Part shown: positions 10,108 through 61,441 of the stretch, in pieces
Layout of the letters: each line of letters starts with the position of its first letter
Position numbering within the stretch: position 1 is the first letter of the stretch
Source: a virus
DNA: 64,000 nt
Direction: 5' to 3' (one strand)
IMG/VR virus record: IMGVR_UViG_3300031834_001450
Location: 1-64,000 of that record
Notes under the pieces: generated by a model
What the model was told of the DNA's origin: nothing
What the model saw: the letters and a program-made list of their open reading frames with translations, nothing else
The model's database searches: none
Program-made: the position numbers and the translations under genes

Positions 10108-10120
10108 TGATTTTTCAACC

Positions 10121-11227
10121 TCAAATAGTTTGTATTAATATTGATATAAAGGCATTTAGATTTTCATTTGTTGTTGTTGTATATTCATTAAAATCAATAG
10201 GAATTACTTCTGATTGTTCAGTAATAAAAAAATTCCAAGTATGTGGATCTGTATGATTGGTAGAATTATATTTTGTAAGTTGAGTTTTTATTTTAAATCT
10301 ATCATAATAAGGAAGTAATCCAAATTTAATTATATCACTTAATAAAAATCCATTAATAAATTTTGATTTTTTAGTTAAAACATTATTAATAAATTTTAAA
10401 AAATATTTTTCATTTAATATATCTTTTGCAAAAGCATATGATATTCCTTGTTTTTCTCTTTTTCCATGAGCTAGTTTTCCTTGAGGAGTTAAAGAAAAAT
10501 CTCCAAAGTCTATATAAGGCAATAAAAATCTATCATAAATAATTCCCGTAAATAATTCAGTTTCTATTTTTTCTGAAATATGTTTTTTTAATTGAAATAA
10601 TGGTCTAAGACTCCCTATATGAGTTTTATGTACACCAATAAGTCTAACTGTATGAGTTAAAAATTGATTAGTTATATAATTAAATAATGTGTGAATAGGG
10701 GAAAGAGATTCATAATCTTCAGGAAGTAGTTTATTTGCCCAACTAGGTGATTCATTACAATGCGCTAATTCTAAATAAATAGTAGTTGAGTTTTTTATTT
10801 TTTCATAAACTTCATTGGGTAATTTATAATTTTTTTGAAAATGATGTAGGGTTGATAAAATAATATGAGATTCATAATTTTCAGGAATTGCTTCTGGTAT
10901 TATACCAGTTAAAAATTCTACATTTTTAATTTGATTAAATTTTCTTATTTCATTACATAATAATATATTATTATAGTCGTAATCAATAGCAGTTATTATT
11001 TTTTTTGTTTTTTCTGCTAATTTAAAAGAAAAATAACCAAGACTACATCCCCAATCACAAATACTACCTTCAAACATTTTATTGTTATTATATCCTTCTT
11101 CTGCTTGTAGAATAGTTTTCCATCTATCATTACTATTTCTTTTATACTCTTGTACTTCATTAAAATTATAAATAGGTTGATATAACTCTGCAATTTCAAA
11201 GGGTATATTATTATAAATTATTTGCAT
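10121..11227 (-). CDS. Methyltransferase fused to a kinase-like C-terminal domain
   Basis: 368 residues. The N-terminal half is a class I methyltransferase: ICDWGCSLGYFSFKLAEK, ITAIDYDYNN, LSTLHHF. The C-terminal half has HTDPHTWNFFI and VIPIDFNEYT, which resemble the catalytic and DFG-type loops of aminoglycoside/fructosamine kinase-like phosphotransferases (HxDxxxxN and IDF). The upstream part of that domain is not easily recognised. Either a bifunctional sugar-modifying enzyme or a methyltransferase with a pseudo-kinase domain. Confidence 0.5.
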   Translation of the reverse strand: MQIIYNNIPFEIAELYQPIYNFNEVQEYKRNSNDRWKTILQAEEGYNNNKMFEGSICDWGCSLGYFSFKLAEKTKKIITAIDYDYNNILLCNEIRKFNQIKNVEFLTGIIPEAIPENYESHIILSTLHHFQKNYKLPNEVYEKIKNSTTIYLELAHCNESPSWANKLLPEDYESLSPIHTLFNYITNQFLTHTVRLIGVHKTHIGSLRPLFQLKKHISEKIETELFTGIIYDRFLLPYIDFGDFSLTPQGKLAHGKREKQGISYAFAKDILNEKYFLKFINNVLTKKSKFINGFLLSDIIKFGLLPYYDRFKIKTQLTKYNSTNHTDPHTWNFFITEQSEVIPIDFNEYTTTTNENLNAFISILIQTI

Positions 11228-11229
11228 TA

Positions 11230-12534: not shown

Positions 12535-13580
12535 TTACTTCTCTCCTTTGGTATACAGTACATTACTGCTCCTTGCCCCATATAGTTATGATTTCTCCAA
12601 TAAAAATTATAATTTTTAAGATTCTTAATTAAATATAGTGGAAGTTTATATAATCCTTCTTTTGTATGATAAGTAGTAACTGCTATAATTGGTCTATATT
12701 TTTTAATAGTTTTAATTGATCCTTTAATTGCTTCTAATTCATATCCTTCTAAGTGATATTTGATAAAAGTTGGTGTAAGTTCAATATTATCTAATTTATT
12801 TATTGGAACTTTATTTTTTGATCTTTTATCTACTTTTGATAAATATTTACAATTATTGAAATTGACATAACCTTTCTTATTTCCAAGTGCTATATTATAT
12901 AAATATAAAAATTCTATATCCCCTATTGATTGAGAAAGATTAAAACAATTTTCTAAATCAGGTTCAAAACAATAAATTGAATTAAATCTACCATGTATAT
13001 TTTCAATAAATTTTTTAATGACTCTTCCATCATAAGTACCTACATCTACAAATACTTCATGATCATGTAATACAGATATAATTTCAGGAATAAAATATCT
13101 ATTATTACAATTTATTGTTTGATTATATAGAAATTCAGTATAATAAATATGCCAATGAATAAAGGAATAATACTGTTTAATTGAAGCTTCATCATTTAAA
13201 TTATGTGCAACTTTATCACAATAGATTTCTTCTGATTCTTTCCATTTTTCTTTTCTCCATCCATTAGTTAAAGGGTGTTTATAATCATTAGCTTTATTTA
13301 TTTCTTCAGCTACTTCAAAGAATGATTTAATATTATTAAATCCCTTATTTTGTAATTTATTTAATATCTCTATATATGAAGTAGTAGAGATACAAATAAT
13401 AACTAAAGGATTATCTTCAATAATAATATCTTCTATTCTAAATATATTTTCATTTTGTGGGGTATCTTCACATAAAATATATTTAATATTGTAAAAATCA
13501 AAGAATTGACTAGCTAATTTACCAAGTTCTCCTGCTCCATATAAGATATATTTTTGATTATTTTCTTTTTTGTTCTGCAT
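12531..13580 (-). CDS. FkbM-family methyltransferase with N-terminal nucleotide-binding domain
   Basis: 349 residues. The N-terminus YILYGAGELGKLASQFF is a Rossmann GxGxxG segment as found in some sugar-island methyltransferases. The second part holds VFVDVGTYDGRVI, YCFEPD, IALGN and KYHLEGYELEAIKG, typical of the FkbM family, where the last block is normally KxDxEGxE; here H replaces the usual D. A sugar O-methyltransferase is likely. It overlaps the GDP-mannose dehydratase gene by 23 bp and the next glycosyltransferase by 4 bp. Confidence 0.65.
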   Translation of the reverse strand: MQNKKENNQKYILYGAGELGKLASQFFDFYNIKYILCEDTPQNENIFRIEDIIIEDNPLVIICISTTSYIEILNKLQNKGFNNIKSFFEVAEEINKANDYKHPLTNGWRKEKWKESEEIYCDKVAHNLNDEASIKQYYSFIHWHIYYTEFLYNQTINCNNRYFIPEIISVLHDHEVFVDVGTYDGRVIKKFIENIHGRFNSIYCFEPDLENCFNLSQSIGDIEFLYLYNIALGNKKGYVNFNNCKYLSKVDKRSKNKVPINKLDNIELTPTFIKYHLEGYELEAIKGSIKTIKKYRPIIAVTTYHTKEGLYKLPLYLIKNLKNYNFYWRNHNYMGQGAVMYCIPKERSK

Positions 13581-14589
13581 GTATCATTTCTTCAATTATA
13601 GTATCAATTGTATACTGTACTTGCCAATTTAAAAATTGTTTTGCTTTTGAATTATCTCCTATAAGATTATCAACTTCACATGGTCGATAAAATTTATTAG
13701 ATATTTCTATAATTTTTACATTATCTATTGTTGCATATTCTTCTATTCCTTTATTTTCATTATGCCATATTAAATTTAAATTTAATTTATTACAAATTTT
13801 ATTAATAAAATTTTTAATACTAATTGATTCTCCACTAGAAAGAATAAAATCATTTGGAATAGATTGTTGTAACATTAACCACATTCCATTTACTATATCT
13901 TTAGCGTGAGAAAAATCTCTTTCTGAATAAATATTACCTATTTTTAAAGGAAGAAATCCTCTATCTTCAATAATGCTTTTTTGTATTTTATATAATTCTT
14001 TTACGCATTTTTGAGAAATAAATTCTATTCCTCTTAATGATCCTGTATGATTAAACGAAATACTATTACTTATAAACATTCCATAACTTTCTCTATAGTT
14101 TATTCCTAAATAAAAACTAGCAACTTTTGATACTCCATAAGGGCTACGAGGATAAAAAGGAGTTGTTTCTGTTTGAGGAATTTCTTTAACTTTACCAAAC
14201 ATTTCACTAGTTGCTGCAAAACATATCTTTGTATTAAAACTATAATTTTTAACTGCTTCTAATATATTTAAATGTCCATAATAATTTACATCATTTGTAA
14301 CATATGGCATTTCAAATGAAGATCCTACAAAACTTTGTGCAGCTAATTGATATAATTCATTAGGTTTATATTTTTTTATAATAGAATTAACATTGTTTTG
14401 TTCTGTAATATCCATATATTCATAAATTAAATATGGATGATTGGCAATACCTAATTCTTCTAATCTCCAATTACTTGAACCTCCACTTCTTCTATCTGTT
14501 CCAATAATTCTATACCCTTTATCTAAAAGAAGTTTTGTTAACCAAGCGGCATCTTGTCCTCTTATACCAGTTATTAAAGCAGTTTTCAA
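13558..14589 (-). CDS. gmd: GDP-mannose 4,6-dehydratase
   Basis: 343 residues, normal family length. TGIRGQDAAWL (7-17) is the NAD(P) loop with the GQD typical of GMD; LAAQSFVG (82-89) and ATSEMFG (126-132) are characteristic; the catalytic YxxxK is Y151/K155 in SPYGVSK. It converts GDP-mannose to GDP-4-keto-6-deoxymannose, the precursor of rhamnose-, fucose- or perosamine-type sugars. No reductase or aminotransferase follows in the window, so the final sugar may depend on host enzymes. Signature sequence, high confidence. Confidence 0.85.
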   Translation of the reverse strand: MKTALITGIRGQDAAWLTKLLLDKGYRIIGTDRRSGGSSNWRLEELGIANHPYLIYEYMDITEQNNVNSIIKKYKPNELYQLAAQSFVGSSFEMPYVTNDVNYYGHLNILEAVKNYSFNTKICFAATSEMFGKVKEIPQTETTPFYPRSPYGVSKVASFYLGINYRESYGMFISNSISFNHTGSLRGIEFISQKCVKELYKIQKSIIEDRGFLPLKIGNIYSERDFSHAKDIVNGMWLMLQQSIPNDFILSSGESISIKNFINKICNKLNLNLIWHNENKGIEEYATIDNVKIIEISNKFYRPCEVDNLIGDNSKAKQFLNWQVQYTIDTIIEEMIHAEQKRK

Positions 14590-14592
14590 AAA

Positions 14593-15723
14593 TTATTCTC
14601 CTATGAGTTTATTTATTTGTTCAATAAAATTTTTTTTACCAAATTTTTTAATAATTTCAAGATCATTATTATTAGTATTCATATAATATTCTTGTTTATT
14701 TAACTTCCACATATTATAACAATCTCTTAAATTTTTAATAATATCTTTTATTGATGGAATAGCATAAATTGAATTTGATTCATACTCATAATGAGACATA
14801 CCTTGAGCAGTATCAAGAATACAAGAGATAGATTTATTTCCCTTAAATTTTCCAGTTTCAATAGTTGATGACCAATTCGTATAAATGCAAGGTAATCCAA
14901 TCATTCCAGCTTCTATTAAAGGTAATCCAAATCCTTCACCTCTAGAAGGAAATAATAATATAGATGATTCTGTATATAGAGAATAAATTTCATCTTTATT
15001 TAAATTTTGAGTAATTTCATAAATTTTTGCTTTCATTTCTTTTGAATTTGTACTAACTAATGTTTTTAATAATAATGGAATTTCTAACTCTTTATTAGAT
15101 AGTGGATGATATTTTAATATCAATCTACAATCTTTATATTGAGATAATGCATGTAAAAATCCTATTATTGCATCTTCCATTCCTTTTCTTTTAGTATATT
15201 GCCCTATATATAAAACAGTAAATATATTTTCATTATTTTTATTTTCTATTTTTATTTTATATTTAGAAAAATCATCTTTAAATATTGGGCAATATATAAG
15301 ATGATTTTCTTTATTTGTTCCTTTTATTTCATCTTTAATCATATCATAAATAAATTTAGATGGTGATATAAATCCAGTAAATAAATTAGATGCCCATAAC
15401 CATTTCCACTTAGAAGGTAAAGGAATAGTTTCCCAAAATAAATGTAAATAAATTTTAATACATGAAGTTGTAACTTGTTCTATATTTTGTTTAACTATTT
15501 TATTTTCAAATGATAATGGATGAGTTAATATAATACAAATATCATATTTATTAACAATATTCTTATATATTCCCATACTTAATTCATTTATATTTATATA
15601 AGTTACTTCTATATTTTCTATAATATCAAACATTTTCTTAAATGATTCTGCTATCACTCCATATCCACCATTTTGTGCTAAAATAAATTCTTCATATGGT
15701 GAAATATATAAAATTTTTTTCAT
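14593..15723 (-). CDS. GT4-like glycosyltransferase
   Basis: 376 residues. VLYIGQYTKRKGMEDAI and FPSRGEGFGLPLIEAGMIG are classic GT4 donor-domain motifs, the latter with the E-x7-E pair, and LILKYHPL lies between them. It is followed after 3 bp by gmd. Probably uses a sugar nucleotide for glycan assembly in the cytoplasm. Confidence 0.8.
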   Translation of the reverse strand: MKKILYISPYEEFILAQNGGYGVIAESFKKMFDIIENIEVTYININELSMGIYKNIVNKYDICIILTHPLSFENKIVKQNIEQVTTSCIKIYLHLFWETIPLPSKWKWLWASNLFTGFISPSKFIYDMIKDEIKGTNKENHLIYCPIFKDDFSKYKIKIENKNNENIFTVLYIGQYTKRKGMEDAIIGFLHALSQYKDCRLILKYHPLSNKELEIPLLLKTLVSTNSKEMKAKIYEITQNLNKDEIYSLYTESSILLFPSRGEGFGLPLIEAGMIGLPCIYTNWSSTIETGKFKGNKSISCILDTAQGMSHYEYESNSIYAIPSIKDIIKNLRDCYNMWKLNKQEYYMNTNNNDLEIIKKFGKKNFIEQINKLIGE

Positions 15724-48980: not shown

Positions 48981-49012
48981 TATAATATATAAAAAAATTT
49001 AAAAAATTAAAC
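48981..49012 (-). promoter_or_regulatory. Recurrent promoter-like element, copy f
   Basis: Minus strand: GTTTAA, T6, AAA, T7, ATATATTATA; 32 bases. It ends 30 bp upstream of ATG 48950, and its TAA is the stop codon of the DNA polymerase gene. Confidence 0.7.
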
Positions 49013-51679
49013 TATTATTTTAAAATTATTAGTATTTCTTACATTTAATCTTTGTAAACATTCATTCCATTCTTCTTGATGTAAATCCCAATATTGTTTA
49101 CCATATCCATATTTCCATATTTCACCATATTTAATATCAGCCATTAGTTTCACTTGATTATTATCAATATTTTTATAATATGGTATTTCCATCCAATATT
49201 TAATAATTTTACAAACTTCTTCTATTTCATTTAAGTCTAGTTCAAATACAATCTCATCATGTACATTTATAAGTATTTTAGATTTTAGATTTTTTTCTTT
49301 AAATTCTTTCCAAATATTAATCATTGCAATAATAGTAGTTTGACCACTCGTTCCTTGTACTGGAGCATTTATTGCAGCATTTAATAAGTTACCAACATCA
49401 AAAGAAGATTGTTTTTTATTATAAAAACTATCTTTTCCAATATAAGTTAATTGAGGCAATCTTCTTTTTCTTCCTAATAGAGATTTCACCCATCCATATT
49501 TTTTAGCATGTTCACGATTATTTGTTATATATGTTGCTACTTCTGGATATGATTTATAAAATGCATCCAAAAATTTATTTCCTTCATCATTAGAAATATT
49601 AAACATATTTGCTATTCCATAATTTGTAGACCCATATAGAGCACTAAAATTTAATGACTTGGATTTACCTCTCCATTCTACAAATTCTTTATCTTCTTGA
49701 CCATCTATTTTAGTTTTTGAAAATACTTCTTCATATGTTGTTTTTTTATTTAATAATTCAAATAATTGTACGCAAGTATAACAATGCATATCTTTATTTT
49801 CAAGTATAAGAGATTCAAGAATACCAGGACCTGATATTTGAGAAAATATACAAACTTCCATTGCATCATAATCTGCAAAAGCCATAACCATATTTTTTGA
49901 CGGTAAAAATATTTTTCTAAATTCTTTTGTTTTTGGCATATTTTGCCAATTTATAGAAGACCCTAAACCACCTCCTCCTGACATTCTACCAGTTTCAGTT
50001 CCATGTAATTTATATCCACCATATAATCTATTATTATATATAGAAGCTAAAAATCCTTTTTCATTTTCTTCAAGTTCATCTTCATTACCAAATAATGCGT
50101 CTCTAGTAGATTCTTTTTGTTGTAATGAATATCCAAATTGAGAAATTTCTTTTGTAATATGATTATATTCTGCAATTTTTTTCATGAATGGTAAATTAGA
50201 TTCTTCTGCATATCTTTCTAGTGTTTCTTTATCAAGTGTTAAATCACCATTTTTATTTAAAAGTTCTTTGCCATCAGAATTTGTTAATACTTTAAAATTT
50301 TCTAAATTTCTTAAAACTTTACTTAATTCTTTACCACTTTTTAAATTAAAAGTATATCCAGCAATTTTATATAATTCTTGTTCTGTTTCTAATGCTTGTA
50401 TTTTTAATTGTTTTACATATTCATTTAAATATTTAATATCAATTTGAACACCAGTCATTTCTATATCTATAATCATTGGTATTGCTGGCATTATAAACTT
50501 ATAAAAATTATCTTTTATAAATAAATCTTCTAATTCTAATCGATTTTTAAAATATACATATAATTGATATGTTATTATACTATCATAACAAGCATATTCA
50601 AGTAATAATTGTTCTGGTAATTTTGTAAAATCAGTATTTTTATTCTGTTTAATATATTGTTTTAACTTAATATCATATCCACCTAATTGTGTATAAATCC
50701 AAGTTAATTGTTTTAATCCATTGGGGGTATTTTCATTAAGAAGATGAGAAGCTAACATAGTATCAAAAGTACATTTTGCATTATATATTCCATTACTAAT
50801 TAAAAACTTCAAATCAAATTGGGAATGATGCAAGCAAAAATCAATATCAGTTCTATTAAATAATTCAATTAATAAATTTTTATCTATTTGATCAAAATAA
50901 CAAAAATATCCAGATCTACCATCAAAAGAAAATTGAATACTATACAATTTTCCTTCTATATAATTTAAATTAGAAGTTTCAATATCTATAGCAATTGCAA
51001 TAATATCTTTATTTTTTATAAGTTCTTTAAGAAAAGAATTTGGATTTTTTTCTAAAAATAAATTATATTTTGAAATTCTTCTTTTATTTTCTACTATAGA
51101 AGATAAAATAAATTTAAATTGTTGAGTAATAAATTTATATTCATAGACATCTTTTATAGTGTCACTTATCCATTGATATAAAGCAGGAATTGGAAATATT
51201 TTACAATTAAATTCTTGAGAATATAACCAACAATCATCTTTTTGATATTCTTGTAATGAATTATTAACTGGAATAAAAAAATGTTCAGCTCGTAATCCTT
51301 TACTTTCTGTAATAGAATATAATGCTCTACCTGTAGTTATAATACATTTTGGATTATATTTTTCTATTATTTTTTTTATATTATATTCTTTACATTTTAC
51401 GTAAGTATTTATTGTATCTTGTGAAGAAAACCCAATAGGAGTACATCCAAGAGCTGGAATAATAGCATATTTTATATTTTTAAAATAATTTTCACATAAT
51501 TTTAAAAAAGGATTTAATTTATCAAATGTTTCTTTAAATTCAAGCAATATTAAAACATCTATATTTTCTTGATTTATTGAATTTCCATAATGTTCATTAT
51601 ATGTATTTGTATAAATAGTACTTTTATTTGCAGCACAACTACATTTTTGTATTTTCTTTTTTTGTAAAAAATCTTCCAT
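49007..51679 (-). CDS. Family A DNA polymerase with N-terminal UDG-like domain
   Basis: 890 residues. The first ~190 resemble a uracil-DNA-glycosylase-fold domain (IIPALGCTPIG, PKCIITTGRALYSI) apparently lacking a clear catalytic loop. The 3'-5' exonuclease follows: AIDIETSN near 231, LHHSQFDLKF, YACYDSIITYQLY. The polymerase domain has motif A AFADYDAMEVC near 600, motif B KSLNFSALYGSTNYG near 676 and motif C NVHDEIVFE near 808. It is the phage replicase, larger than T7 gp5 (704). Promoter copy g upstream. Confidence 0.9.
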   Translation of the reverse strand: MEDFLQKKKIQKCSCAANKSTIYTNTYNEHYGNSINQENIDVLILLEFKETFDKLNPFLKLCENYFKNIKYAIIPALGCTPIGFSSQDTINTYVKCKEYNIKKIIEKYNPKCIITTGRALYSITESKGLRAEHFFIPVNNSLQEYQKDDCWLYSQEFNCKIFPIPALYQWISDTIKDVYEYKFITQQFKFILSSIVENKRRISKYNLFLEKNPNSFLKELIKNKDIIAIAIDIETSNLNYIEGKLYSIQFSFDGRSGYFCYFDQIDKNLLIELFNRTDIDFCLHHSQFDLKFLISNGIYNAKCTFDTMLASHLLNENTPNGLKQLTWIYTQLGGYDIKLKQYIKQNKNTDFTKLPEQLLLEYACYDSIITYQLYVYFKNRLELEDLFIKDNFYKFIMPAIPMIIDIEMTGVQIDIKYLNEYVKQLKIQALETEQELYKIAGYTFNLKSGKELSKVLRNLENFKVLTNSDGKELLNKNGDLTLDKETLERYAEESNLPFMKKIAEYNHITKEISQFGYSLQQKESTRDALFGNEDELEENEKGFLASIYNNRLYGGYKLHGTETGRMSGGGGLGSSINWQNMPKTKEFRKIFLPSKNMVMAFADYDAMEVCIFSQISGPGILESLILENKDMHCYTCVQLFELLNKKTTYEEVFSKTKIDGQEDKEFVEWRGKSKSLNFSALYGSTNYGIANMFNISNDEGNKFLDAFYKSYPEVATYITNNREHAKKYGWVKSLLGRKRRLPQLTYIGKDSFYNKKQSSFDVGNLLNAAINAPVQGTSGQTTIIAMINIWKEFKEKNLKSKILINVHDEIVFELDLNEIEEVCKIIKYWMEIPYYKNIDNNQVKLMADIKYGEIWKYGYGKQYWDLHQEEWNECLQRLNVRNTNNFKIIV

Positions 51680-51697: not shown

Positions 51698-51730
51698 GAT
51701 AATATATAAACTAATTATAAAAATTTAAAT
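51698..51730 (-). promoter_or_regulatory. Recurrent promoter-like element, copy g
   Basis: Minus strand: ATTTAA, ATTTTT, ATAATTAG, TTT, ATATATTATC; 33 bases. It ends 18 bp before the polymerase ATG. Its TAA is the stop of the dCMP deaminase gene. Confidence 0.65.
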
Positions 51731-52153
51731 TTTTTCTACTTCAATCCCTCTATTTTTTAAAAAATCTATTCCAGAAGAATCTCTATATTCTTCTCTATAA
51801 AAAACTTTTTTAATACCAGCAGATAGAATTTGTAAACTACAATTAAAACATGGAGATAATGTTATATAGATTGTTGATCCATTAGGAGAAATACCCTGTT
51901 TTACTGCTTTATGTATGGCATTAAGTTCTGAATGCATTACTTCTTTTCTAGTAACTAATTCTCCCAGTTCATTAATATATTCACATTCATTGTCCATTCC
52001 CATGGGCATACCATTATATCCATATGCTATAATATTATGATCTTTAACAATAACGCATCCAACCTTATTACGAGTTGCATAAGACATCTGAGATGTATTA
52101 ACTGCAATAGACATATATAATTGATCATATTGTTTTATTCGTTCCTTATTCAT
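51725..52153 (-). CDS. dCMP deaminase
   Basis: 142 residues from ATG 52153 (an upstream TTG at 52165 would add four). Zinc site HSELNAI and SPCFNC, with GCVIVKDHNIIAYGYNG, are standard for deoxycytidylate deaminases. The enzyme turns dCMP into dUMP, the precursor of dTMP. The ATG overlaps the end of the thymidylate-synthase-like gene, so the two are co-translated. Confidence 0.85.
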   Translation of the reverse strand: MNKERIKQYDQLYMSIAVNTSQMSYATRNKVGCVIVKDHNIIAYGYNGMPMGMDNECEYINELGELVTRKEVMHSELNAIHKAVKQGISPNGSTIYITLSPCFNCSLQILSAGIKKVFYREEYRDSSGIDFLKNRGIEVEKI

Positions 52154-52865
52154 TATAACTCTCAACTATTTTTTGTAATAAATCAAAATGTCTATCATAT
52201 ATATGAAAAGATCCAAAAAAGAAATTAATAATTCCCATTTGTAAAGTTGGATATATTTCTTTTAATTCTAAATATAATTTATTATAAACATAACAATGCC
52301 AATAAAAATCATTAAAAAAGCCATAAATTCCATCGCAACTTCTTTGATCTACAAAATATATCAATGAATTATTTCTAATAAAACATTGAACACTATTGGT
52401 ACATACAAAATCTGACATTCCATTTCTATTATAATCTATATGCATAGATGGTCTTGTATATAACATTAATGCTCTTCTTGATAGAGGATTAAATATTAAT
52501 TCTTGTTTACAATTATTAAATTGATTATAATTCTCTTCAGAAAAAATTAAATAACCATAATTAGAATTTATTTCTTTTTTTTCATCTTTAGTACAAACAT
52601 CGTTCCATATTTTAATATCATCAACATAATCAATAATAGATAATGATTCTGAAAGATACCAATTTAATTCTTTTTCTACATATTGAATAGAAGTTTTTTT
52701 AATTTCATTAAAATTTAAAATTGATTGTACTGGATTTAATCCTTCTATTTTACATCCAATAATTTCAACAACTTTAATACCAGTTTTATCTATTACAAAC
52801 TTTTTATTTTGTATATCACTATATAATTTTTTAAAACTCGGTAACAATATTTGTTCATTAGTCAT
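52146..52865 (-). CDS. Thymidylate synthase homologue, probable dCMP hydroxymethylase
   Basis: 239 residues. TS-fold hallmarks: SNYGYLIF (101-108), NPLSRRALM (126-134), catalytic C155 in SDFVCTNSV, QRSCD (174-178), FHIYDRH (220-226). Aligning without gaps on E. coli TS C146 = C155, Q165, R166, D169 and G173 all fall on identical residues, and N177 falls on D186. In T4 dCMP hydroxymethylase the same position is Asp, which selects dCMP over dUMP. The product would be 5-hydroxymethyl-dCMP. It is coupled by ATGA to a glycosyltransferase gene upstream. Confidence 0.7.
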   Translation of the reverse strand: MTNEQILLPSFKKLYSDIQNKKFVIDKTGIKVVEIIGCKIEGLNPVQSILNFNEIKKTSIQYVEKELNWYLSESLSIIDYVDDIKIWNDVCTKDEKKEINSNYGYLIFSEENYNQFNNCKQELIFNPLSRRALMLYTRPSMHIDYNRNGMSDFVCTNSVQCFIRNNSLIYFVDQRSCDGIYGFFNDFYWHCYVYNKLYLELKEIYPTLQMGIINFFFGSFHIYDRHFDLLQKIVESYNE

Positions 52866-54070
52866 TTTAATAATCCTTCAATATCTTTAATTACATTATT
52901 TGAAATTTCTTCAAAAGCTCCTTGATTATTTCTAATTTTAATTTCTTTAAATTCATTTGTATTAATATAATCTAAAGAATCTAGTGCATAATTTAATTTT
53001 TGTACTATGCTATCAACTATAGGTGAATCACCATCATGATCGATATAATAAGGATACTTTTTACCACCTCTTCTAGCATATTCAAAAACCATAGGCATTA
53101 TAGTAATATTATTACAATAAAGAGACTCCACTTGACTACACCCCCCCATTCTCTCAAGAATAAATCCATGAAAGCTAATATCTGCTTTCCATAATAATTC
53201 AAAGTATTCTTGTCTATTAAGAGATCCTTCTTTATAAATATAGAGAGGTTTAACTAATTCTTTTAATTCATCTATGGAATATTTTCCAGATGGATTTGTA
53301 AATATAACTTGAAAATCTTTTCTTTTTTCATAAAGTTTATTTACTGCTTCAATAAATTCTATGTGATGAGTATAGTTTATACCACTTAATCTATTGAGAA
53401 ATAATATAGTTTTCTTTTCAAATTTTTCTTCTAATTTATAAGTATCAGCCTCTTTTTTAGAAAATCCAAAATCCCAAATAAAACTTTTCTTTTTAATTTG
53501 ATTTATTTTATTTGATTTAAAAACTAATTTAGCATTATTAAAAAAAGCTTCTTTTGTTGATTTACAAGTAAAAATACAAAGATCAGAACATTCATATCCA
53601 TCAAATTGTCTATATTGATAACTTATTTCAGTAGCCACTTTTGCTTCATTAATTTCAGGAGTATCCATCCAATAACAACAAGAAATTAACTTTGTTTCTT
53701 TTGATTTTTGAAATAAATATGTTTTTATATTTCTAGAAAGTTCTATAATATTATTCCATACAATATCAATCTTTGGAAGTTCTTTAAAAATAGAATCAAA
53801 TTCAATAATATTAAAATGTTGTCGTATTGTAAATGCATCAATAGGATAAGTATAGGGAATAAAAATAACATTTTTGTGTTTAAAGATATTATCATAAGAT
53901 TTTATGTCAGCAAAATCTTTAAGTGGTGCAATAAGAATATAAACTGTCCAATTTATCTTTTCAACAATTTCAGTTAAAATCCCAACTAGCATATTAATGT
54001 TACTATCAGCGCTAATCCATTTATTTTCATTATTATAAATACTTTGTTGCAAAATATATAAAATATTCAT
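52862..54070 (-). CDS. GT-B glycosyltransferase, candidate DNA base glycosyltransferase
   Basis: 402 residues. The second domain shows KKTILFLNRLSGINYTHHIEF, FQVIFTNPSG and SFHGFILERMGGCSQVESL, where ERMGGCSQVE could correspond to the donor-binding E...E loop. Its 3' end overlaps the TS-like gene by ATGA and its 5' end overlaps the GIY-YIG gene by 4 bp. The tight coupling to a probable dCMP hydroxymethylase suggests transfer of a sugar to hydroxymethylcytosine in DNA. A glycan acceptor cannot be excluded. Confidence 0.6.
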   Translation of the reverse strand: MNILYILQQSIYNNENKWISADSNINMLVGILTEIVEKINWTVYILIAPLKDFADIKSYDNIFKHKNVIFIPYTYPIDAFTIRQHFNIIEFDSIFKELPKIDIVWNNIIELSRNIKTYLFQKSKETKLISCCYWMDTPEINEAKVATEISYQYRQFDGYECSDLCIFTCKSTKEAFFNNAKLVFKSNKINQIKKKSFIWDFGFSKKEADTYKLEEKFEKKTILFLNRLSGINYTHHIEFIEAVNKLYEKRKDFQVIFTNPSGKYSIDELKELVKPLYIYKEGSLNRQEYFELLWKADISFHGFILERMGGCSQVESLYCNNITIMPMVFEYARRGGKKYPYYIDHDGDSPIVDSIVQKLNYALDSLDYINTNEFKEIKIRNNQGAFEEISNNVIKDIEGLLK

Positions 54071-54753
54071 TTATTATCTCCTATTATATTTTTTAAATGC
54101 GCTTCACTTCTATTTCTTAATTTAATTTTATGTTTTCTAAGTATTTTGCTAATAGGCCCACCATAGACATTATATCTTTTTCCTATTGTATAAGGTGATT
54201 CTTTTAAATTTAAATATGAAAAAATTATTTCTTTTTCTTGCTCATCTGTAAAAAATTTACCACTAGCTTCTTGTAAATTTCTTTTATGCACATTATTTTC
54301 TTTTAATATTCTTTCAATAACCGCACCACTAACATTAAATATTTTTCCTATATTTTTTAAAGATATTTTGTCATTATACATATTTAAAATAGATATAGTT
54401 TGTGATTGAGAAAATTGAATTTTACTTCTTCCAGGACAATCTGTATTATCTGGATCCTGTTTATTATACCCAAATTCACTATTTTTTGTTTTATAAAAGT
54501 CTATATAATATTTTTCCTTTTGTCTAAGAGTATCTTCATTATATTCTGATAGTAATTCGATAATATAAAAATTAAAATTTTCTTTGCCGTATTTTAATAA
54601 TGAAAATCTTAAATGTTTATTTATGGCCTCATTTTTTAAAAATAATTGCATATGATCTTTTAACCTTGACTGAACATATTTAGAACTTCCAATATATTTT
54701 TTGTTATTTATTTTATTTTCAATACAATATATTCCAGGTTGTACAAATAGCAT
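54067..54753 (-). CDS. GIY-YIG homing-type endonuclease
   Basis: 228 residues. GIYCI (7-11) and KKYIGSSKYVQSRLKDH (18-34) form the nuclease core with the catalytic Arg; the C-terminus has two helix-turn-helix segments (LKNIGKIFNVSGAVIERIL and SPYTIGKRYNVYGGPISKIL) for DNA targeting. It is a free-standing homing endonuclease placed seamlessly between kinase and glycosyltransferase genes. Confidence 0.85.
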   Translation of the reverse strand: MLFVQPGIYCIENKINNKKYIGSSKYVQSRLKDHMQLFLKNEAINKHLRFSLLKYGKENFNFYIIELLSEYNEDTLRQKEKYYIDFYKTKNSEFGYNKQDPDNTDCPGRSKIQFSQSQTISILNMYNDKISLKNIGKIFNVSGAVIERILKENNVHKRNLQEASGKFFTDEQEKEIIFSYLNLKESPYTIGKRYNVYGGPISKILRKHKIKLRNRSEAHLKNIIGDNK

Positions 54754-55254
54754 TTATTCTCCTATGAATTCTTTTATTTTTAATATTTGATTTTCTAAAT
54801 TTTCATCTGTAGTATCTAATATAAGATATTCACATTTTGTTTTTTTAAGAAATTCAATATAATATTGTTTTATTAATTTTATTTTATTTTGATTAATAAC
54901 ATCATCAATATATATTTTATATTCTTTTTTAAAACAATAAATAAGTTTTAATTTCAACTTAGAAAACTCTTCATCTATTTGCCATATAAAATTTTCATTA
55001 AATTGTCTATCTAATGCTAAGGAATATGAAAAATGACAAGCAATTCCACGATCCATAATTAAATTAGTTGGAACTTGTTTTAAATAATCTATAAAAAATC
55101 TACTTTCATATTCTACTGAAAGATCAATTTCATTATTTTTAAAATATTCTTTTGTATTATTATTTCTATAATATGAAATATTTAATAACTTAGATATTAT
55201 TTGAGCAATTGTTGTTTTTGCTGTTCTATCAGGACCAATAAATTGAATCAACAT
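54754..55254 (-). CDS. P-loop nucleotide kinase-like protein
   Basis: 166 residues. The P-loop is FIGPDRTAKTTIAQ (5-18), of the thymidylate-kinase type (G-x-D-x-x-x-K-T/S), followed by LIMDRGIACHFSYS, which matches the DR(Y/G) motif. Small for the family but complete in motifs. A likely role is to phosphorylate dNMPs, including a modified dCMP, as T4 gp1 does. Confidence 0.6.
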   Translation of the reverse strand: MLIQFIGPDRTAKTTIAQIISKLLNISYYRNNNTKEYFKNNEIDLSVEYESRFFIDYLKQVPTNLIMDRGIACHFSYSLALDRQFNENFIWQIDEEFSKLKLKLIYCFKKEYKIYIDDVINQNKIKLIKQYYIEFLKKTKCEYLILDTTDENLENQILKIKEFIGE

Positions 55255-55265
55255 TAAATTTTTCC

Positions 55266-55955
55266 TTATATTTTTTCTAAAAAATAAATCACATCTCTAC
55301 TTAATTTATAATTATTCCAAGCAAATAAAACTCGTTGAATTTCAATTGGTAAAATAGTAAACTCTTCTATTGCACAATTATTTAAATAATTATCATTTGA
55401 CATACTCCATCCATGTACATCTAATATTTTGAGTCCACTTTGATTAAAACAATCTTCAAGTTCTTTATAAGTATATTCATAATTATGATATTTTGGCCAA
55501 TTTACAATATTTGATATTTGATTTGGTGTACTTATAATTAAATATTTAAAAGGTAAATTACAAATTTTATTAAAAATTTCTATTCCTTTTTCTTTTGAAT
55601 TAAAATGTTCAATTACATCTAATAATAATAAACAATCAATTTTATTTTTTAAAATAATTTCTTGAATAGTTAAAAATACATTTTCTGTTTTATAAAAAAT
55701 TCCATTACTACAAAGATTATCATATATAATTGAATCTCTATAATCAATACCAAAATAAGAAATAATTTTATTTGATTCAATTAATAATTTATTAATATAT
55801 GCTGTATCACAACCCACATCAATAATTGATTCAATATTATTTTTAATAATAAATTCTCTAACAGATTGATCTTTAAATAATTTACTTATATATCCAGGAT
55901 CAAGATCTATTTTAGATAATTGTTGTCTTAATGATGACATATCAACAATAGTCAT
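55266..55955 (-). CDS. Class I SAM methyltransferase
   Basis: 229 residues. IIDVGCDTAYINKLL, YFGIDYRD, CLLLLDVIEHFNSKEKG and LIISTPNQI are the motif I to IV/post sequence of a small-molecule methyltransferase. In an operon with sugar-nucleotide enzymes, so O- or N-methylation of a sugar is plausible. Confidence 0.7.
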   Translation of the reverse strand: MTIVDMSSLRQQLSKIDLDPGYISKLFKDQSVREFIIKNNIESIIDVGCDTAYINKLLIESNKIISYFGIDYRDSIIYDNLCSNGIFYKTENVFLTIQEIILKNKIDCLLLLDVIEHFNSKEKGIEIFNKICNLPFKYLIISTPNQISNIVNWPKYHNYEYTYKELEDCFNQSGLKILDVHGWSMSNDNYLNNCAIEEFTILPIEIQRVLFAWNNYKLSRDVIYFLEKI

Positions 55956-56980
55956 ATTTTTTCTAAATTTACCATTTCAATTACCCATGGTATAATTTCA
56001 TCTAATGCTTTATTTAATGAAGTTTCTGCTTTAAATCCTAATAACTTTTCTGCTTTATCAATAGAAGGAATTCGGCATTGTACATCATATTCATACGGGT
56101 TATCTGAAATATAATTAAACTCTACATTAGAATTTAATCTATCCCAAATAATTTTTGCAAGTTCTAATACAGTATAACTTTCAGGGGTACTTAAATTAAA
56201 ATCAGTATTTAATGCATTTTCATTAAAAATGGCTTGATAAATCCCTTCTGCTAAATCTCCTGCATATGTATAATGGCGTATTTGATTTCCTTTTCCAAGA
56301 ATATGAAGCGGGTTTTGACCTTTAATTATTTTTTGTATAAGATCAGGTATTACATGGCTAAGAGCTAATTTAATATTACCAGACATAACTACTGTTTCTG
56401 TCATAGCTGCTTGTTCCCCAATTCCAGCTGCATTAAATGGTCTTACAATAGTATATGGAAGTTTATATTGTTCATATGCACCTTTAACAAAATATTCAAT
56501 TGCAAGTTTTTGAAATCCATATGTTGATAATGGAGGTGGGCAAATCAATTGATCTCCTTCTTTTGAAGGAAAAGTTTCTGTTGATTCAAAAACCATACTT
56601 GAAGATATTGCAATTATTTTTTTAAGAAATCCTTCTTTATGCGCTTTAATTGCAATATCAAAAATAGATGCGGTAAGTCTTTCATTTTCAGCAAGTAAAT
56701 CATAAGCCAATTCATGAAAGAAACTTATACCACCAATCCACGCAGCTCCATGCACAATATAATCTATTTTATTAGAAAAAATTATATTTTCTAAAATATC
56801 TTTATTTTTTGCATCACCATAAAAATGAAAATAATTTGGATGTTTATCAAAACTTTTTTCTAATGGACCATATTTCCAATCATTATCTACTCCATAAACA
56901 ATATGACCTTCATTTAATAATTTTTGTATTGAATATCCTGCAATAAAACCTCGATCACCAGTCCAAAATATTTTAGCCAT
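55952..56980 (-). CDS. NAD-dependent sugar-nucleotide epimerase (SDR family)
   Basis: 342 residues from ATG 56980, chosen over an in-frame TTG at 56992 for its GGAG site. WTGDRGFIAGYSI (about 6-18) is the NAD loop, HGAAWIGG the second motif, and SSSM ... YGFQKLA the catalytic Ser and YxxxK. The family includes UDP-glucose epimerases, UDP-xylose/arabinose enzymes and GDP-fucose synthases (YGFQK). The substrate cannot be fixed. It starts at the stop of the dehydrogenase gene (TAATG). Confidence 0.75.
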   Translation of the reverse strand: MAKIFWTGDRGFIAGYSIQKLLNEGHIVYGVDNDWKYGPLEKSFDKHPNYFHFYGDAKNKDILENIIFSNKIDYIVHGAAWIGGISFFHELAYDLLAENERLTASIFDIAIKAHKEGFLKKIIAISSSMVFESTETFPSKEGDQLICPPPLSTYGFQKLAIEYFVKGAYEQYKLPYTIVRPFNAAGIGEQAAMTETVVMSGNIKLALSHVIPDLIQKIIKGQNPLHILGKGNQIRHYTYAGDLAEGIYQAIFNENALNTDFNLSTPESYTVLELAKIIWDRLNSNVEFNYISDNPYEYDVQCRIPSIDKAEKLLGFKAETSLNKALDEIIPWVIEMVNLEKI

Positions 56981-58212
56981 TAATTTCTCCAATTATTATA
57001 TAAATTTTCTTTTAATATATTCCATCCATCAATTACTATTTTATCATTAAATTCTTCTTTAGTAAAAGTAAGATATTCTTTATGATTTATTGCTATAATA
57101 ATAATATCACATTGTTTAACTTCTTCTATTGAATAATTTATAAAAATCATATTATTATATTTATCATTATATTCTCCTAACGGAAGATTAGGTTCATTTA
57201 TTTTAATTTGTTCTGGTAAATTACGTTCTAAATATCTAATTAATTTAGGTGTTAAATTATCTCTAGTATCATCAGTATTACTTTTAAATGTAAATCCAAA
57301 AATTCCAATAGTTTTATTTTTAATATCATTTTGAATTAAATCAACATAAAATTTTGGTGTAAATTCATTAATTTTGTAAGCTTGTAATATTAAATCTGTT
57401 TGTGGAAAATTTTCATTAATCATTCCCCAATCTTTCGTTAAACATGTGCCTTTTGCAAAACCAGGAGTCAATAATCCTTTATTTCTATCATATCCAGGAT
57501 TCATTAAAGAAAATAATTTATATATATCAACTCCAAATGATTGTGACATATATGAAAAATAATTAGGAATTGCCATATTTATGTAACGATAAATATTTGT
57601 AAATAATTTACTTAATTCAGCTTCAATAAAAGTTGATTTAAAGATTTGAATTCCTAAAATAGAAAAAATATTTTTTGCAAGATCAAAACTAATATCATCT
57701 TTTACTCCAATAACTTGAGGTAATTCTAATAATTCTTTATATGCTTCGCCTTCAACTATTCTTTCAGGACACATTGCTAAATAAAAATCTTTACCAAGAA
57801 TATAGTTTGTTTTATTTTCAATAATATTTTTGATATACTCAGTTGTATTAGGTGCAACTGTTGATCTAAGAATAATTAATTTATTTTTAATATCTATTTT
57901 AGAAATTAAATCATTAATTACGAATGTTACTTGAGATAAATCTGTTTCAATATGTTCTCCTAGTGGAGTTCCAACAGTTAGTATATATGCTTTTGCATCA
58001 GGGTAATTTTCATATTTTGAATTATAAATTGTAAAAGTTTCTTTAACTAATTCATCATATCCTGGTTCATAAAATGGCATTTTATTATTTTTAATACCCT
58101 CTATCATTTCATCATTAATATCTACACCACAAACATTTAACTTTTTTTCTCGTAAAGATAATGCCAATGGAAGACCAACTCTTCCACATCCTATTACACA
58201 AATATCATACAT
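56980..58212 (-). CDS. UDP-sugar 6-dehydrogenase (UDP-Glc/UDP-ManNAc dehydrogenase family)
   Basis: 410 residues. VIGCGRVGLPLALSL (7-21) is the NAD site; SKYENYPDAKAYILTVGTPLGE and STVAPNTTEYI are typical; the catalytic Cys is in GTCLTKDWG near residue 256, where the family has G-x-C-(L/F)-(P)-K-D. It oxidises C6 of a UDP sugar to a uronate. With the epimerase next to it, products such as UDP-glucuronate derivatives, galacturonate or pentoses are possible. Confidence 0.8.
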   Translation of the reverse strand: MYDICVIGCGRVGLPLALSLREKKLNVCGVDINDEMIEGIKNNKMPFYEPGYDELVKETFTIYNSKYENYPDAKAYILTVGTPLGEHIETDLSQVTFVINDLISKIDIKNKLIILRSTVAPNTTEYIKNIIENKTNYILGKDFYLAMCPERIVEGEAYKELLELPQVIGVKDDISFDLAKNIFSILGIQIFKSTFIEAELSKLFTNIYRYINMAIPNYFSYMSQSFGVDIYKLFSLMNPGYDRNKGLLTPGFAKGTCLTKDWGMINENFPQTDLILQAYKINEFTPKFYVDLIQNDIKNKTIGIFGFTFKSNTDDTRDNLTPKLIRYLERNLPEQIKINEPNLPLGEYNDKYNNMIFINYSIEEVKQCDIIIIAINHKEYLTFTKEEFNDKIVIDGWNILKENLYNNWRN

Positions 58213-58234
58213 ATATTAACTCCATTTTTATTTT

Positions 58235-58729
58235 CTATTTTATTCCCGTACTTCCAAAACCACCACTTCCTCTTGAAGATTCTTTATCTATATAAAGTTC
58301 TGAAAATTCTACTTCATATGGTAAAAGATAAGAAATAGGAATTAGTATAAATTGAATTATTTTTTCATTTTGTTCTATAACCACTATTTCATTAGAAGAA
58401 TTAATAAGAGAAATATGTATTTCACCTAAATAATCTTCATCTATAGTTTCTGCTGCTTTTATTAAACCTCTTCTTGAACTTATTCCAGATTTATTAAATG
58501 CGTTTAACATAAATCCATCTGGTATATTTGCATGAATACCTGATGGAATTAAACATCTTTCATTTGGATTTAGGATAATTGCTGTATTATTTATTTGAAT
58601 ATTTGAATTTTTTAATTTAAAATCTAATAAAAATTGTGAATCAAATACAGGAATAAAAAAATCTATTCCAGCAGATTTTGGAGTTGATCTAATTGGACTT
58701 TTTACCTCTCTAATTTTCGAAAATTTCAT
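58235..58729 (-). CDS. dut: dUTPase (first of two)
   Basis: 164 residues. Motifs 1, 2, 3 and 5 are SAGIDFF, NKSGIS, AETIDEDYLGEI and RGSGGFGSTG. Motif 2 departs from PRSS (NKSG), a form seen in many phage enzymes. It removes dUTP and supplies dUMP. It begins the operon leading to the sugar-nucleotide and modification genes. Confidence 0.85.
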   Translation of the reverse strand: MKFSKIREVKSPIRSTPKSAGIDFFIPVFDSQFLLDFKLKNSNIQINNTAIILNPNERCLIPSGIHANIPDGFMLNAFNKSGISSRRGLIKAAETIDEDYLGEIHISLINSSNEIVVIEQNEKIIQFILIPISYLLPYEVEFSELYIDKESSRGSGGFGSTGIK

Positions 58730-59101: not shown

Positions 59102-59296
59102 TTAATTTTCTTTTATTGCATTCGCTGGACATTCAAAATTTATAATACAAGTTTTACAATTTTTACATTTAGTTTGATCTATAGTACTTTGTAAATATCC
59201 TTTCTTAATTATATTTAAATGATCTATTTGAATAGCTTCAAAAGGACATTCTTCTACACACATCCCACACGAAATACAGTCTTCTATAATTCTCAA
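59102..59296 (-). CDS. 2[4Fe-4S] ferredoxin
   Basis: 64 residues. C7, C10, C13, C17P and C44, C47, C50, C56P form two cluster-binding sets; the second has five rather than three residues before the last Cys. It is a low-potential electron carrier, plausible partner for the anaerobic ribonucleotide reductase activase or for radical SAM enzymes, though no activase is in the window. Its ATG overlaps the methyltransferase gene's stop. Confidence 0.85.
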   Translation of the reverse strand: MRIIEDCISCGMCVEECPFEAIQIDHLNIIKKGYLQSTIDQTKCKNCKTCIINFECPANAIKEN

Positions 59297-60120
59297 TCTA
59301 TTTCTCCTATTTTATAATAGCAAATTTCATTTAATACGGTTTCTCTTTTTCTATTAGGACTTATATTTTTTAATTTATTCAAATAGATTTTATTTTTAAA
59401 ATATTTATTACCTATTTCATTCTCTATATCAAAATAAATAATATCATTGGAAATAAAATCTAATTGTTTAAACATTTCTTCCAAATCCTGTATACTCCAT
59501 CCATTAGAATTAACCATTTTATTTATTTGATAGGGGGGATCTAAAATATATAAACTATTTTTTAAATTTATAATATTAAAAGCATTATTTGATATAAATA
59601 ATTTATCTTTAATGAGTTTAAAGTTTTTTAAAGAATATTCAAAATCTCTACATGTATAATTACTAATAAACCTGTTCCCAAAACTTTGATTAAATCCATT
59701 AGGTCCAAATCTATACATAGTATTTATACAACTATTTACTAAAATTATTAAACCAAATGCTTCTTCTTTAGTCTGCTTTTTCCATAAAATATTATTAAAA
59801 TAATCTCTAAAATTATAATATCCATTATAAGTTGAAACATTATATTGAAGATTATTTACGTAAGTAGTAAACTCACCTTCATCTATTAAGAATAGATGTT
59901 CATAAATATTTAATAAATTAATATCTATTTCTGAAACATAATAACTATTAAATTGTTTTTGTAAATTTAATAATATTTGTGCAGAACCTAAAAAAGGTTC
60001 AACATAAATATTTTTATTTGATTTTTTTACAAGATCATTTATCATATCTAAATGAATAAGTTTATTACCCATATATTGGAATAGTCTAGATATAATTTGT
60101 TTTCTTTGTAAAAAACTCAA
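59293..60120 (-). CDS. DNA N6-adenine methyltransferase (Dam-like)
   Basis: 275 residues. KLIHLDMINDLVK and IYVEPFLGSAQILL form the SAM site (F-x-G-S/G), MYRFGPNGFNQSFGNR is the usual middle block and ILDPPYQ is the catalytic DPPY near residue 192. It methylates adenine in DNA, which protects against host restriction or marks phage DNA. No restriction endonuclease partner is adjacent. Confidence 0.85.
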   Translation of the reverse strand: MSFLQRKQIISRLFQYMGNKLIHLDMINDLVKKSNKNIYVEPFLGSAQILLNLQKQFNSYYVSEIDINLLNIYEHLFLIDEGEFTTYVNNLQYNVSTYNGYYNFRDYFNNILWKKQTKEEAFGLIILVNSCINTMYRFGPNGFNQSFGNRFISNYTCRDFEYSLKNFKLIKDKLFISNNAFNIINLKNSLYILDPPYQINKMVNSNGWSIQDLEEMFKQLDFISNDIIYFDIENEIGNKYFKNKIYLNKLKNISPNRKRETVLNEICYYKIGEID

Positions 60121-60848: not shown

Positions 60849-61007
60849 TTATTCCTTTATTTTATTAAATTTTGGACAAACTATTTGTACAACTAAATGA
60901 GATTGTTTACATCTTTCTTTACATTTTTTACATAATTCTGAAAAATTAGACCAATACCATTTACTATATTGTTTATCTGACATTGAATTAATATTTATAT
61001 TTTCCAT
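60849..61007 (-). CDS. Small cysteine-containing protein
   Basis: 52 residues, MENININSMSDKQYSKWYW, then CKKCKERCKQ and VCPKF. The ATG at 61007 overlaps the TAA of the second dUTPase gene (TAATG). Possibly zinc binding. Unknown. Confidence 0.45.
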   Translation of the reverse strand: MENININSMSDKQYSKWYWSNFSELCKKCKERCKQSHLVVQIVCPKFNKIKE

Positions 61008-61441
61008 TATTTTGTACCTGTTGACCCAAAACCACCTCTTGGATTATCTGTCATATGTTCTACTTCTGTAATAAGTATTTGAGGCATTTTTTCTACTACT
61101 CGAAATTGACAAACTCTATCATTCTTTTTTATATAAGATTCTCTTGTTGCATATATTGGCATTTTTACAATATCAGATTCTCCACAAAACGATTCATCTA
61201 AAATTCCCATAGAATTTATTTGTAAAATTCCCCAAATTTTAAAAGTAGAAGATCTTGGTAATATATGCATTTCATATCCAGGAGGAACTTTAACAGATAC
61301 ACCTAAATCAATAAGTCTAAAATCACCTTGTTCTATATGATAATCATAAGCACTTCTTAAATCTATCCAATCTCCTTTCTCTATTTTTTCTATTTTAATT
61401 AAATCTAATACATGATATTTTACTTTTAATTCAAGAATCAT
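61007..61441 (-). CDS. dut: dUTPase (second, bacterial-type)
   Basis: 144 residues. All five motifs are present: WIDLRSA, PRSSTF, MGILDESFCGE, NDRVCQFRVVE and PRGGFGSTG. The motif wording differs from the first dUTPase and matches Gram-positive and phage forms. Having two suggests division of work, such as dUTP control during DNA repair versus replication, or a regulatory second copy. Confidence 0.85.
   Translation of the reverse strand: MILELKVKYHVLDLIKIEKIEKGDWIDLRSAYDYHIEQGDFRLIDLGVSVKVPPGYEMHILPRSSTFKIWGILQINSMGILDESFCGESDIVKMPIYATRESYIKKNDRVCQFRVVEKMPQILITEVEHMTDNPRGGFGSTGTK

Follow-up and report, generated by a model that had tools for sequence, protein, structure and literature searches.

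Why would a virus carry genes for deoxynucleotide metabolism, for the synthesis of a nucleotide sugar and for glycosyl transfer in a single tightly packed run next to its DNA polymerase gene? The question is raised by positions 51725-58729, on the minus strand, of the window analyzed here, which comprises bases 1-64,000 of the 83,334-base IMG/VR virus record IMGVR_UViG_3300031834_001450 and has a GC content of 24%. The run probably is a cytosine hypermodification cassette, the products of which would decorate hydroxymethylcytosine DNA with a sugar that the phage itself makes through a UDP-uronate. The eight genes named by the initial annotation are all open reading frames (ORFs) there, and their coordinates bear out its description of one tight run, with gaps from -20 to +22 bp. 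Transcription proceeds in the order dUTPase-family gene, dehydrogenase, short-chain dehydrogenase/reductase (SDR), methyltransferase, thymidylate kinase (TMPK)-like kinase, GIY-YIG gene, glycosyltransferase, thymidylate synthase (TS) homologue and dCMP deaminase, followed by DNA polymerase A (Table 1); the successive gaps from the dUTPase-family gene to the dCMP deaminase gene are +22, -13, -4, +11, 0, -4, -4 and -20 bp, with +45 bp to the polymerase gene. The overlaps of 13 and 20 bp depend on TTG start codons; if translation began at the in-frame ATG of codon 5, both would be smaller. Families were assigned by profile searches for seven of the eight named genes, and for the glycosyltransferase by predicted fold only. 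All eight names were right, and what the annotation overlooked is the homing endonuclease gene, which lies outside the proposed pathway and was not seen at the corresponding place in the related viral contigs L005, L009 and L010.

Table 1. Features of the gene run and of its immediate surroundings, in window coordinates
Feature	Coordinates	Strand	Evidence
Family A DNA polymerase with 3'-5' exonuclease	49007..51679	-	DNA_pol_A 2.8e-63, exonuclease 1.7e-15; next gene downstream of the run
dCMP deaminase, 146 aa	51725..52165	-	Pfam 2.9e-23; PHROG 174 2.1e-52
Predicted dCMP 5-hydroxymethylase (T4 gp42 type), 239 aa	52146..52865	-	1b49 match, conserved Cys155 and Asp186, tree
Putative glycosyltransferase, 402 aa, predicted GT-B fold, GT4-like	52862..54070	-	Structure model; relatives in L003, L005, L009, L010
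GIY-YIG homing endonuclease, inserted in the run	54067..54753	-	GIY-YIG 2.4e-10; PHROG 7168 1.3e-21
Thymidylate-kinase-like P-loop kinase, 166 aa	54754..55254	-	PHROG 761 4.6e-05; TIGR00041 2.7e-05, under cut-off
Small S-adenosylmethionine methyltransferase, 229 aa	55266..55955	-	Methyltransf_23 6.4e-06, under Pfam cut-off; 45% identical gene in L009
Extended SDR, NAD-dependent nucleotide-sugar epimerase type, 346 aa	55952..56992	-	Epimerase 3.6e-34; in-frame ATG at 56980
Nucleotide-sugar 6-dehydrogenase (UGD family), 410 aa	56980..58212	-	Three UDPG_MGDP_dh domains, 9.5e-39; TIGR03026
Trimeric dUTPase-family pyrophosphatase, 164 aa	58235..58729	-	dUTPase 1.9e-16
Block replaced in L003 (dehydrogenase from about codon 170 and whole SDR)	55962..57705		Identity drop

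The TS homologue, which matches the TS family at the Pfam level (4e-15), has as its best solved relative the T4 dCMP hydroxymethylase (PDB 1b49, E 4.1e-52), and the match spans residues 18-230 of 239, that is, nearly the full length; the runners-up in the PDB are CMP 5-hydroxymethylases (E 3e-05) and thymidylate synthases (0.0019 or worse). In this family, a conserved Cys is catalytic, and Asp versus Asn in the base-recognition column tells enzymes acting on dCMP from those acting on dUMP. The window protein has Cys155 in the catalytic column and Asp186 in the base-recognition column, where the true ThyA of the L005 phage (L015) has Asn; among the nine aligned sequences, Asp is found in seven (window, T6 gp42, L004, L005, L006, L009 and L010) and Asn in two (ThyA L015 and a Maribacter phage). 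In a maximum-likelihood tree of 11 sequences, the window protein and T6 gp42 share a clade of five members (support 100/100); most of the deeper forks in this tree are open, and RB69 and ThyA form long branches. The L005 phage has its separate ThyA (5e-123) and the L004 phage a ThyX (1.7e-47), and therefore in these two phages the cassette enzyme is not the sole source of dTMP. The structural match, the two residues and the clade support well the assignment of the TS homologue to the gp42-like dCMP hydroxymethylase type, as first annotated, rather than to the dTMP synthase type.

The putative glycosyltransferase is recognizable from its fold. Searches of Pfam, PHROG and PDB gave no significant match (for Pfam and PDB, also with the relatives of the protein as queries), the best sub-threshold rows being HAMP_2 (0.069) and a PHROG of unknown function (0.035). 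Neither the protein nor its relatives match the Glycos_transf_1 (GT4) family of Pfam, whereas two other glycosyltransferases of the window do; one member gave PF04488 at 0.25. The T4 beta-glucosyltransferase family PF09198 was not matched by the window protein and three relatives in Pfam searches up to E 1 and is absent from the searched records of the window, L005, L009 and L010, and PHROG 7922 was not among the PHROGs matches of the window protein up to 0.1. A structure model built from four sequences (predicted local distance difference test score 75.8), which replaced a three-sequence model at 54.2, resembles GT-B enzymes from end to end, with a sucrose-phosphate synthase in first place (Z 28.2, root-mean-square deviation 3.7, 357 residues aligned), followed by MshA, BshA and PglA at Z 26-28, and neither AGT nor BGT of T4 is among the best 50 fold matches listed. 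Because these fold relatives are retaining GT4 enzymes, an alpha linkage is the default guess. Among the matches listed, relatives occur only in viral contigs, namely L003 (a near-identical sister of the window), L005 (250 kb), L009 (178 kb) and L010 (39 kb); none was found in 50,697 annotated phage records with the window and L010 proteins as queries, and 149 pattern matches in genome contigs included no true relative, with the qualification that the scans for relatives rest on a few short peptide patterns, so that distant members may be missed. The protein appears to represent a new phage family with a predicted GT-B fold. A hydroxymethylase-type gene accompanies this family at every locus found, truncated in L003 where the contig stops; it adjoins the glycosyltransferase gene in the window, L005 and L009 and is separated from it by one gene in L010.

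A similar gene set recurs in L005, L009 and L010, each of which has a sugar dehydrogenase, an SDR of the same subfamily, a TMPK-like kinase, the glycosyltransferase and a TS-family enzyme with Asp, and two of which have a methyltransferase. Because these contigs are divergent (glycosyltransferase identity 48-57%), the arrangement is more than chance. The TS-family enzymes are 50% (L005), 34% (L009) and 26% (L010) identical to that of the window. Distant or non-orthologous proteins occupy the slots for the TS-family enzyme, dehydrogenase and pyrophosphatase, yet the role persists, and the methyltransferase varies; most simply, this is explained by selection for a shared pathway. The order in L005 is dehydrogenase, three small ORFs, SDR, a uracil-DNA-glycosylase-like gene, kinase, glycosyltransferase and hydroxymethylase. 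In L009, it is dUTPase_2, dehydrogenase, SDR, a uracil-DNA-glycosylase-like gene, methyltransferase, kinase, glycosyltransferase, TS-family gene, dCMP deaminase and, by eye, a DNA polymerase III alpha-like gene. L010 reads dUTPase_2, small ORF, dCMP deaminase, small ORF, short dehydrogenase, SDR, FkbM methyltransferase, glycosyltransferase, kinase, TS-family gene and, again by eye, a polymerase III alpha-like gene. A fifth locus, L111, comprises a TS-family gene (Asp identified by eye, not aligned), a short dehydrogenase and the SDR, followed by the contig end. Uracil-DNA-glycosylase-family genes lie in or beside three hydroxymethylase cassettes (L005 7622-8218, L009 8263-8826 and L006 5698-6438) and perhaps remove deaminated or unmodified bases.

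Two further contigs show hydroxymethylase runs of other composition. L004, with the hydroxymethylase closest to that of the window (54%), combines it with a TMPK-like kinase and a T4-type beta-glucosyltransferase (PF09198 1e-18; PHROG 7922 1.6e-53), the only PF09198 match in six records searched, and the presence of this DNA glucosyltransferase indicates that runs of this kind can be used for the glycosylation of DNA. The sugar dehydrogenase family PF03721 was found in five of seven records searched, those of L004 and L006 being without it. The L006 run has a carbamoyltransferase and a kinase that is recognized weakly, only by the thymidylate-kinase families of PHROGs (4.1e-08); the carbamoyltransferase, of the NodU type (6439-8139), lies in a hydroxymethylase-kinase-deaminase run, and L006 is possibly a phage with carbamoylated hydroxymethylcytosine.

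Which sugar would be attached? The dehydrogenase of the window scores 269.6 bits against TIGR03026 (cut-off 189.8), and its K202, N206, C257 and D261 are unvarying across six aligned sequences; Cys, Lys, Asn and Asp have catalytic roles in nucleotide-sugar 6-dehydrogenases. A dehydrogenase gene lies within 100 bp of the SDR gene in 68 of 79 bacterial loci, 67 of these being full-length (80 loci were fetched, and one without a recognized SDR was left out); this proximity suggests that the two enzymes act in series, the SDR probably on the product of the dehydrogenase. In the viral loci, the distance is within 100 bp in 24 of 40 and within 10 kb in 15 more. Short sugar dehydrogenases, under 300 aa, also pair with this SDR (L010 7443-8243, L111 9216-10010 and most of L114-L148), and the nearest dehydrogenase is short in 36 of the 40 viral loci versus one of the 79 bacterial ones; a Pfam search of the L111 enzyme detects no UDP-binding domain at the C-terminus, and the other loci were judged by length. 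The SDR has the YxxxK motif, and it reads SSSM where UDP-xylose synthases (decarboxylases) read TSE, the Glu of which is catalytic. With Met in place of this Glu, arabinose, which the initial annotation had in view, and xylose become less likely, and we would favor an epimerized uronate over a pentose. Nevertheless, the alternative has to be weighed that the SDR is a decarboxylase that turns UDP-glucuronate into UDP-xylose or UDP-arabinose, a route once discussed for RB69: the PDB relatives of the SDR profile include UDP-glucuronate decarboxylases (E about 4e-25), and pentose- or deoxypentose-bearing cytosines have been reported in RB69, NP and Thanatos. SSSM, however, is present in all five cassette SDRs and in 119 of 119 subfamily members (79 bacterial and 40 viral, the latter including four of the five), whereas the SDR of a Maribacter phage reads STSEVYG, and the NCBIfam UDP-4-keto-pentose/UDP-xylose model gives 50 of 294 bits, a weak point because every other SDR model listed is also under its cut-off. 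A pentose thus appears unlikely. As far as sequence reaches, both core parts of the initial proposal stand, in that the TS homologue is of the hydroxymethylase type and that a dehydrogenase and the SDR travel with such an enzyme and the glycosyltransferase in divergent contigs; the sugar and its attachment to DNA are predictions.

The sugar pair is also the part in which the window differs from its sister contig L003 (10.4 kb). The two are 99.83% identical upstream (5282/5291) and 99.87% downstream (3158/3162), with a block at 57705-55962 in between at 67.8% (1177/1735); the first 160 residues of the dehydrogenase are identical, the remainder 63.6%, and the SDRs 49.7%. A clean replacement of the sugar-making part suggests, at the sequence level, sugar switching, and a sugar pair that differs between near-identical phages would be expected if the sugar is under pressure from host defenses. 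A homologous exchange of the block without change of function would give the same picture, and so would an assembly chimera, given that both are metagenome contigs, L003 is short and identity falls again at its end. Both alleles, however, are intact reading frames, the downstream break coincides with the end of the SDR gene, and the GC content is similar (25.3% and 24.9%), so we doubt that the difference is an assembly artifact. The drop at L003 10288-10410, in the last about 100 bases and inside the hydroxymethylase, may reflect either another exchange or an error at the contig end. More tentatively, and with the odds rather against it, one could envisage exchangeable DNA 'sugar coats', with a fixed core (hydroxymethylase, kinase, glycosyltransferase) and a swappable sugar pair, such that near-identical phages would differ in their DNA sugar, an acidic, possibly methylated uronic acid placed on hydroxymethylcytosine by an undescribed glycosyltransferase family. 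If real, the allele swap would be a natural case of the sugar as a unit of diversification against host defenses, testable by comparison of the two alleles.

Several observations weigh against reading the run as a cytosine hypermodification cassette, and some of them carry the alternative that the hydroxymethylase modifies DNA, while the products of the dehydrogenase, SDR, methyltransferase and glycosyltransferase genes assemble a glycan of the surface or virion, the location of these genes in a replication operon being fortuitous. In the DNA fetched around the SDR genes, a TS-family gene was seen at four of the 40 viral loci (L110-L113), that of L003 being cut by the contig end, and at none of the other 35; these loci are not independent, because L003, L110, L112 and L113 are the cassette contigs L003, L009, L010 and L005, respectively, and three pairs have identical SDRs. 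Only these four have the glycosyltransferase or the kinase. No TS-family gene was found in the fetched stretches of the 80 bacterial loci, and in Pelosinus the neighbors of the pair are PMT_2, GT2 and GtrA genes. The SDR subfamily is therefore not specific to DNA, a TS-family gene being seen at few of the viral and at none of the bacterial loci, and on this reading the dehydrogenase-SDR pair is a general sugar module that some phages use on DNA. Furthermore, the phage carries a separate glycan-type cluster at 1225-15723. This second minus-strand cluster, near the tail sheath gene at 17685, encodes glycosyltransferases (two matching Glycos_transf_1), a nucleotide-sugar epimerase (PHROG 540), a B12-binding radical SAM protein and a methyltransferase, and is possibly a surface or virion glycan cluster. 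What speaks against assigning the sugar genes of the run to a glycan is that all loci found with the glycosyltransferase family also have hydroxymethylase-type genes and that the comparable L004 run has a T4-type DNA glucosyltransferase; chance placement of glycan genes accordingly seems to us quite improbable.

Other adverse points concern single genes. For the dehydrogenase, UDP-ManNAc dehydrogenase models give 177 and 152 bits and UDP-glucose models a lower 128 and 109, each below its cut-off; the equivalog level for UDP-glucose 6-dehydrogenase is not reached (AglM 127.7 of 670, TuaD 108.6 of 700), nor is it for UDP-ManNAc, whereas, in favor of the cassette reading, the short dehydrogenase in the same slot of L010 scores best against UDP-glucose dehydrogenase models. 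The kinase has Ala at the usual P-loop Gly position, so that its activity is not assured; the methyltransferase is missing from the L005 cassette. Finally, the argument from a separate source of dTMP fails for the window phage, because no second TS (PF00303) or ThyX (PF02511) was found in its 83,334-base record. This last point and the homology of the window enzyme with RB69 ORF048 (E 1e-04), near which RB69 has an annotated thymidylate kinase gene, would fit a TS homologue that makes 5-hydroxy-dCMP, as in RB69, or dTMP, with no hydroxymethylcytosine formed, but this is highly unlikely given 41.7% identity to T6 gp42 versus 21.1% to RB69 ORF048, the R-S-x-D-x-x-x-G motif kept in the window and lost in RB69, and Asp in place of the Asn of ThyA. 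RB69 ORF048, which we equate with the RB69 5-hydroxy-dCMP synthase from the note in its record, also has Asp at the base column.

Under the cytosine hypermodification reading, the pathway would proceed as follows. The dUTPase-family enzyme would break down dCTP and dUTP, as its family and neighborhood suggest. In motif III of this protein, Gly is changed to Glu, with Gln or Ser in L005, L004 and L006; record LR756500 encodes a comparable enzyme, in which the residue is Ser, and elsewhere a TS-family protein with Asp. The association of the motif III change with a hydroxymethylase-type gene comes from five genomes, without a control set, and provides a lead that the enzyme is possibly a dCTPase or dCTPase/dUTPase. 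In L009 and L010, a dUTPase_2 gene stands upstream of the dehydrogenase in its place. The gp42-type enzyme would then hydroxymethylate dCMP, the step best supported by sequence, and the TMPK-like kinase would help to make 5-hydroxymethyl-dCTP, to be incorporated by the phage polymerase A. Homologues of the kinase are present in L005, L009 and L010, and because a kinase accompanies the hydroxymethylase even where no dehydrogenase is present (L004, L006), it can be placed on the nucleotide branch (5-hydroxymethyl-dCMP to 5-hydroxymethyl-dCDP); it is likely a 5-hydroxymethyl-dCMP kinase. On the sugar branch, the dehydrogenase would oxidize a host UDP-sugar, probably UDP-glucose and possibly UDP-HexNAc, to a UDP-uronate, which the SDR would epimerize, and the predicted GT-B enzyme would move the sugar onto the hydroxymethyl group in DNA. 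Like the kinase step, this branch is read from family, fold and conserved neighborhood. Position alone prompts the guess that the methyltransferase caps the sugar, possibly as an O- or carboxyl-methyltransferase. FkbM-type methyltransferases are linked to sugars, and the original suggestion of a methylated sugar is made plausible by the related enzyme in L009 and the FkbM type in L010; L005, with none, does not fit it.

Within the surroundings of the run, a D12-class adenine DNA methyltransferase (3.5e-15) is encoded upstream at 59293-60120, and a second dUTPase-family gene with an intact motif III Gly at 61007-61441, 2.3 kb upstream of the first. A link of the N-terminal 200 residues of the polymerase to uracil-DNA glycosylase was considered and dropped, there being no Pfam match at E 0.01.

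Whether a given restriction or CRISPR system can act on phage DNA depends in part on the sugar on its cytosine, and a uronate-derived sugar made by the phage would, if true, put a charged group on every modified base. The new glycosyltransferase might serve as an enzyme for labeling hydroxymethylcytosine.

Cytosine modification in the T-even phages depends on gp42, gp56, gp1 and the glucosyltransferases AGT and BGT. The window resembles them in having a gp42-type hydroxymethylase gene beside a glycosyltransferase gene in the replication region (the order in T6 is gp43, imm.1, imm, gp42, glycosyltransferase, uvsX). Whereas T-even phages draw on host UDP-glucose (PMC6024577), the window encodes a dehydrogenase and an SDR of its own; its kinase is TMPK-like, and its glycosyltransferase belongs to a different family. 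RB69, which had been taken initially for a hydroxymethylcytosine phage, carries its sugar on 5-hydroxycytosine, the base now being arabinosyl-5-hydroxycytosine made by the gp42 homologue (PMC13390438), and for RB69/NP and Shewanella phage Thanatos, pentosyl-cytosine with a phage-made nucleotide sugar has been proposed (PMC13390438, PMC6024577, PMC12838424). Common to RB69 and the window are a TS-family gene with a thymidylate-kinase gene nearby and, as also for NP and Thanatos, a proposed phage-made sugar on cytosine. RB69/NP, as far as described, have 5-hydroxycytosine and a proposed isomerase/epimerase/NTP-transferase route, whereas in the window a gp42-type enzyme is combined with a dehydrogenase-SDR route. 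When eight RB69 proteins were compared with the record of the window at E 0.01, only the TS-family one matched.

A precedent for a uronate on DNA comes from Bacillus phage SP-15, which encodes a UDP-glucose dehydrogenase and bears phosphoglucuronate on a modified uracil (PMC5977210). The SP-15 base is dihydroxypentyluracil linked via a phosphodiester, unlike the base predicted here, and no SDR is annotated in the 19 kb examined. The whole SP-15 record NC_031245 (L013) gave no PF00303 match, although PMC5977210 names a hydroxymethyldeoxyuridine synthase; split or very divergent genes are perhaps the reason. The Maribacter phages Molly and Colly have, in an isolate, UGD, SDR, a beta-glucosyltransferase-like gene and a TS-family gene in one row, with the differences that the glycosyltransferase belongs to PHROG 7922, the SDR has TSE and the TS-family protein Asn instead of Asp. 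The row of Molly_1 (L012 9001-13760) possibly makes a sugar-bearing modification of the thymine or hydroxymethyluracil type, and in the available text of the paper on these phages (PMC8776804), the terms glucosyl, dehydrogenase, epimerase and thymidylate do not appear. In the bacterium Pelosinus fermentans, the SDR is 61% identical to that of the window (58-64% across the 80 fetched bacterial loci) and a full-length dehydrogenase gene adjoins; the difference lies in the glycan genes around the pair, with no TS-family gene in the fetched stretch. Pyle et al. 2024 reportedly described diverse glycans on phage DNA. The combination of a gp42-type enzyme, a uronate-type sugar and this glycosyltransferase family was not found among the open-licence papers that the literature searches listed. 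Thus, glycosylation of phage cytosine is already known, and what appears to be new, judging from the genes, is a gp42-type hydroxymethylase joined with a putative phage-made uronate-type sugar and a new predicted family of glycosyltransferases.

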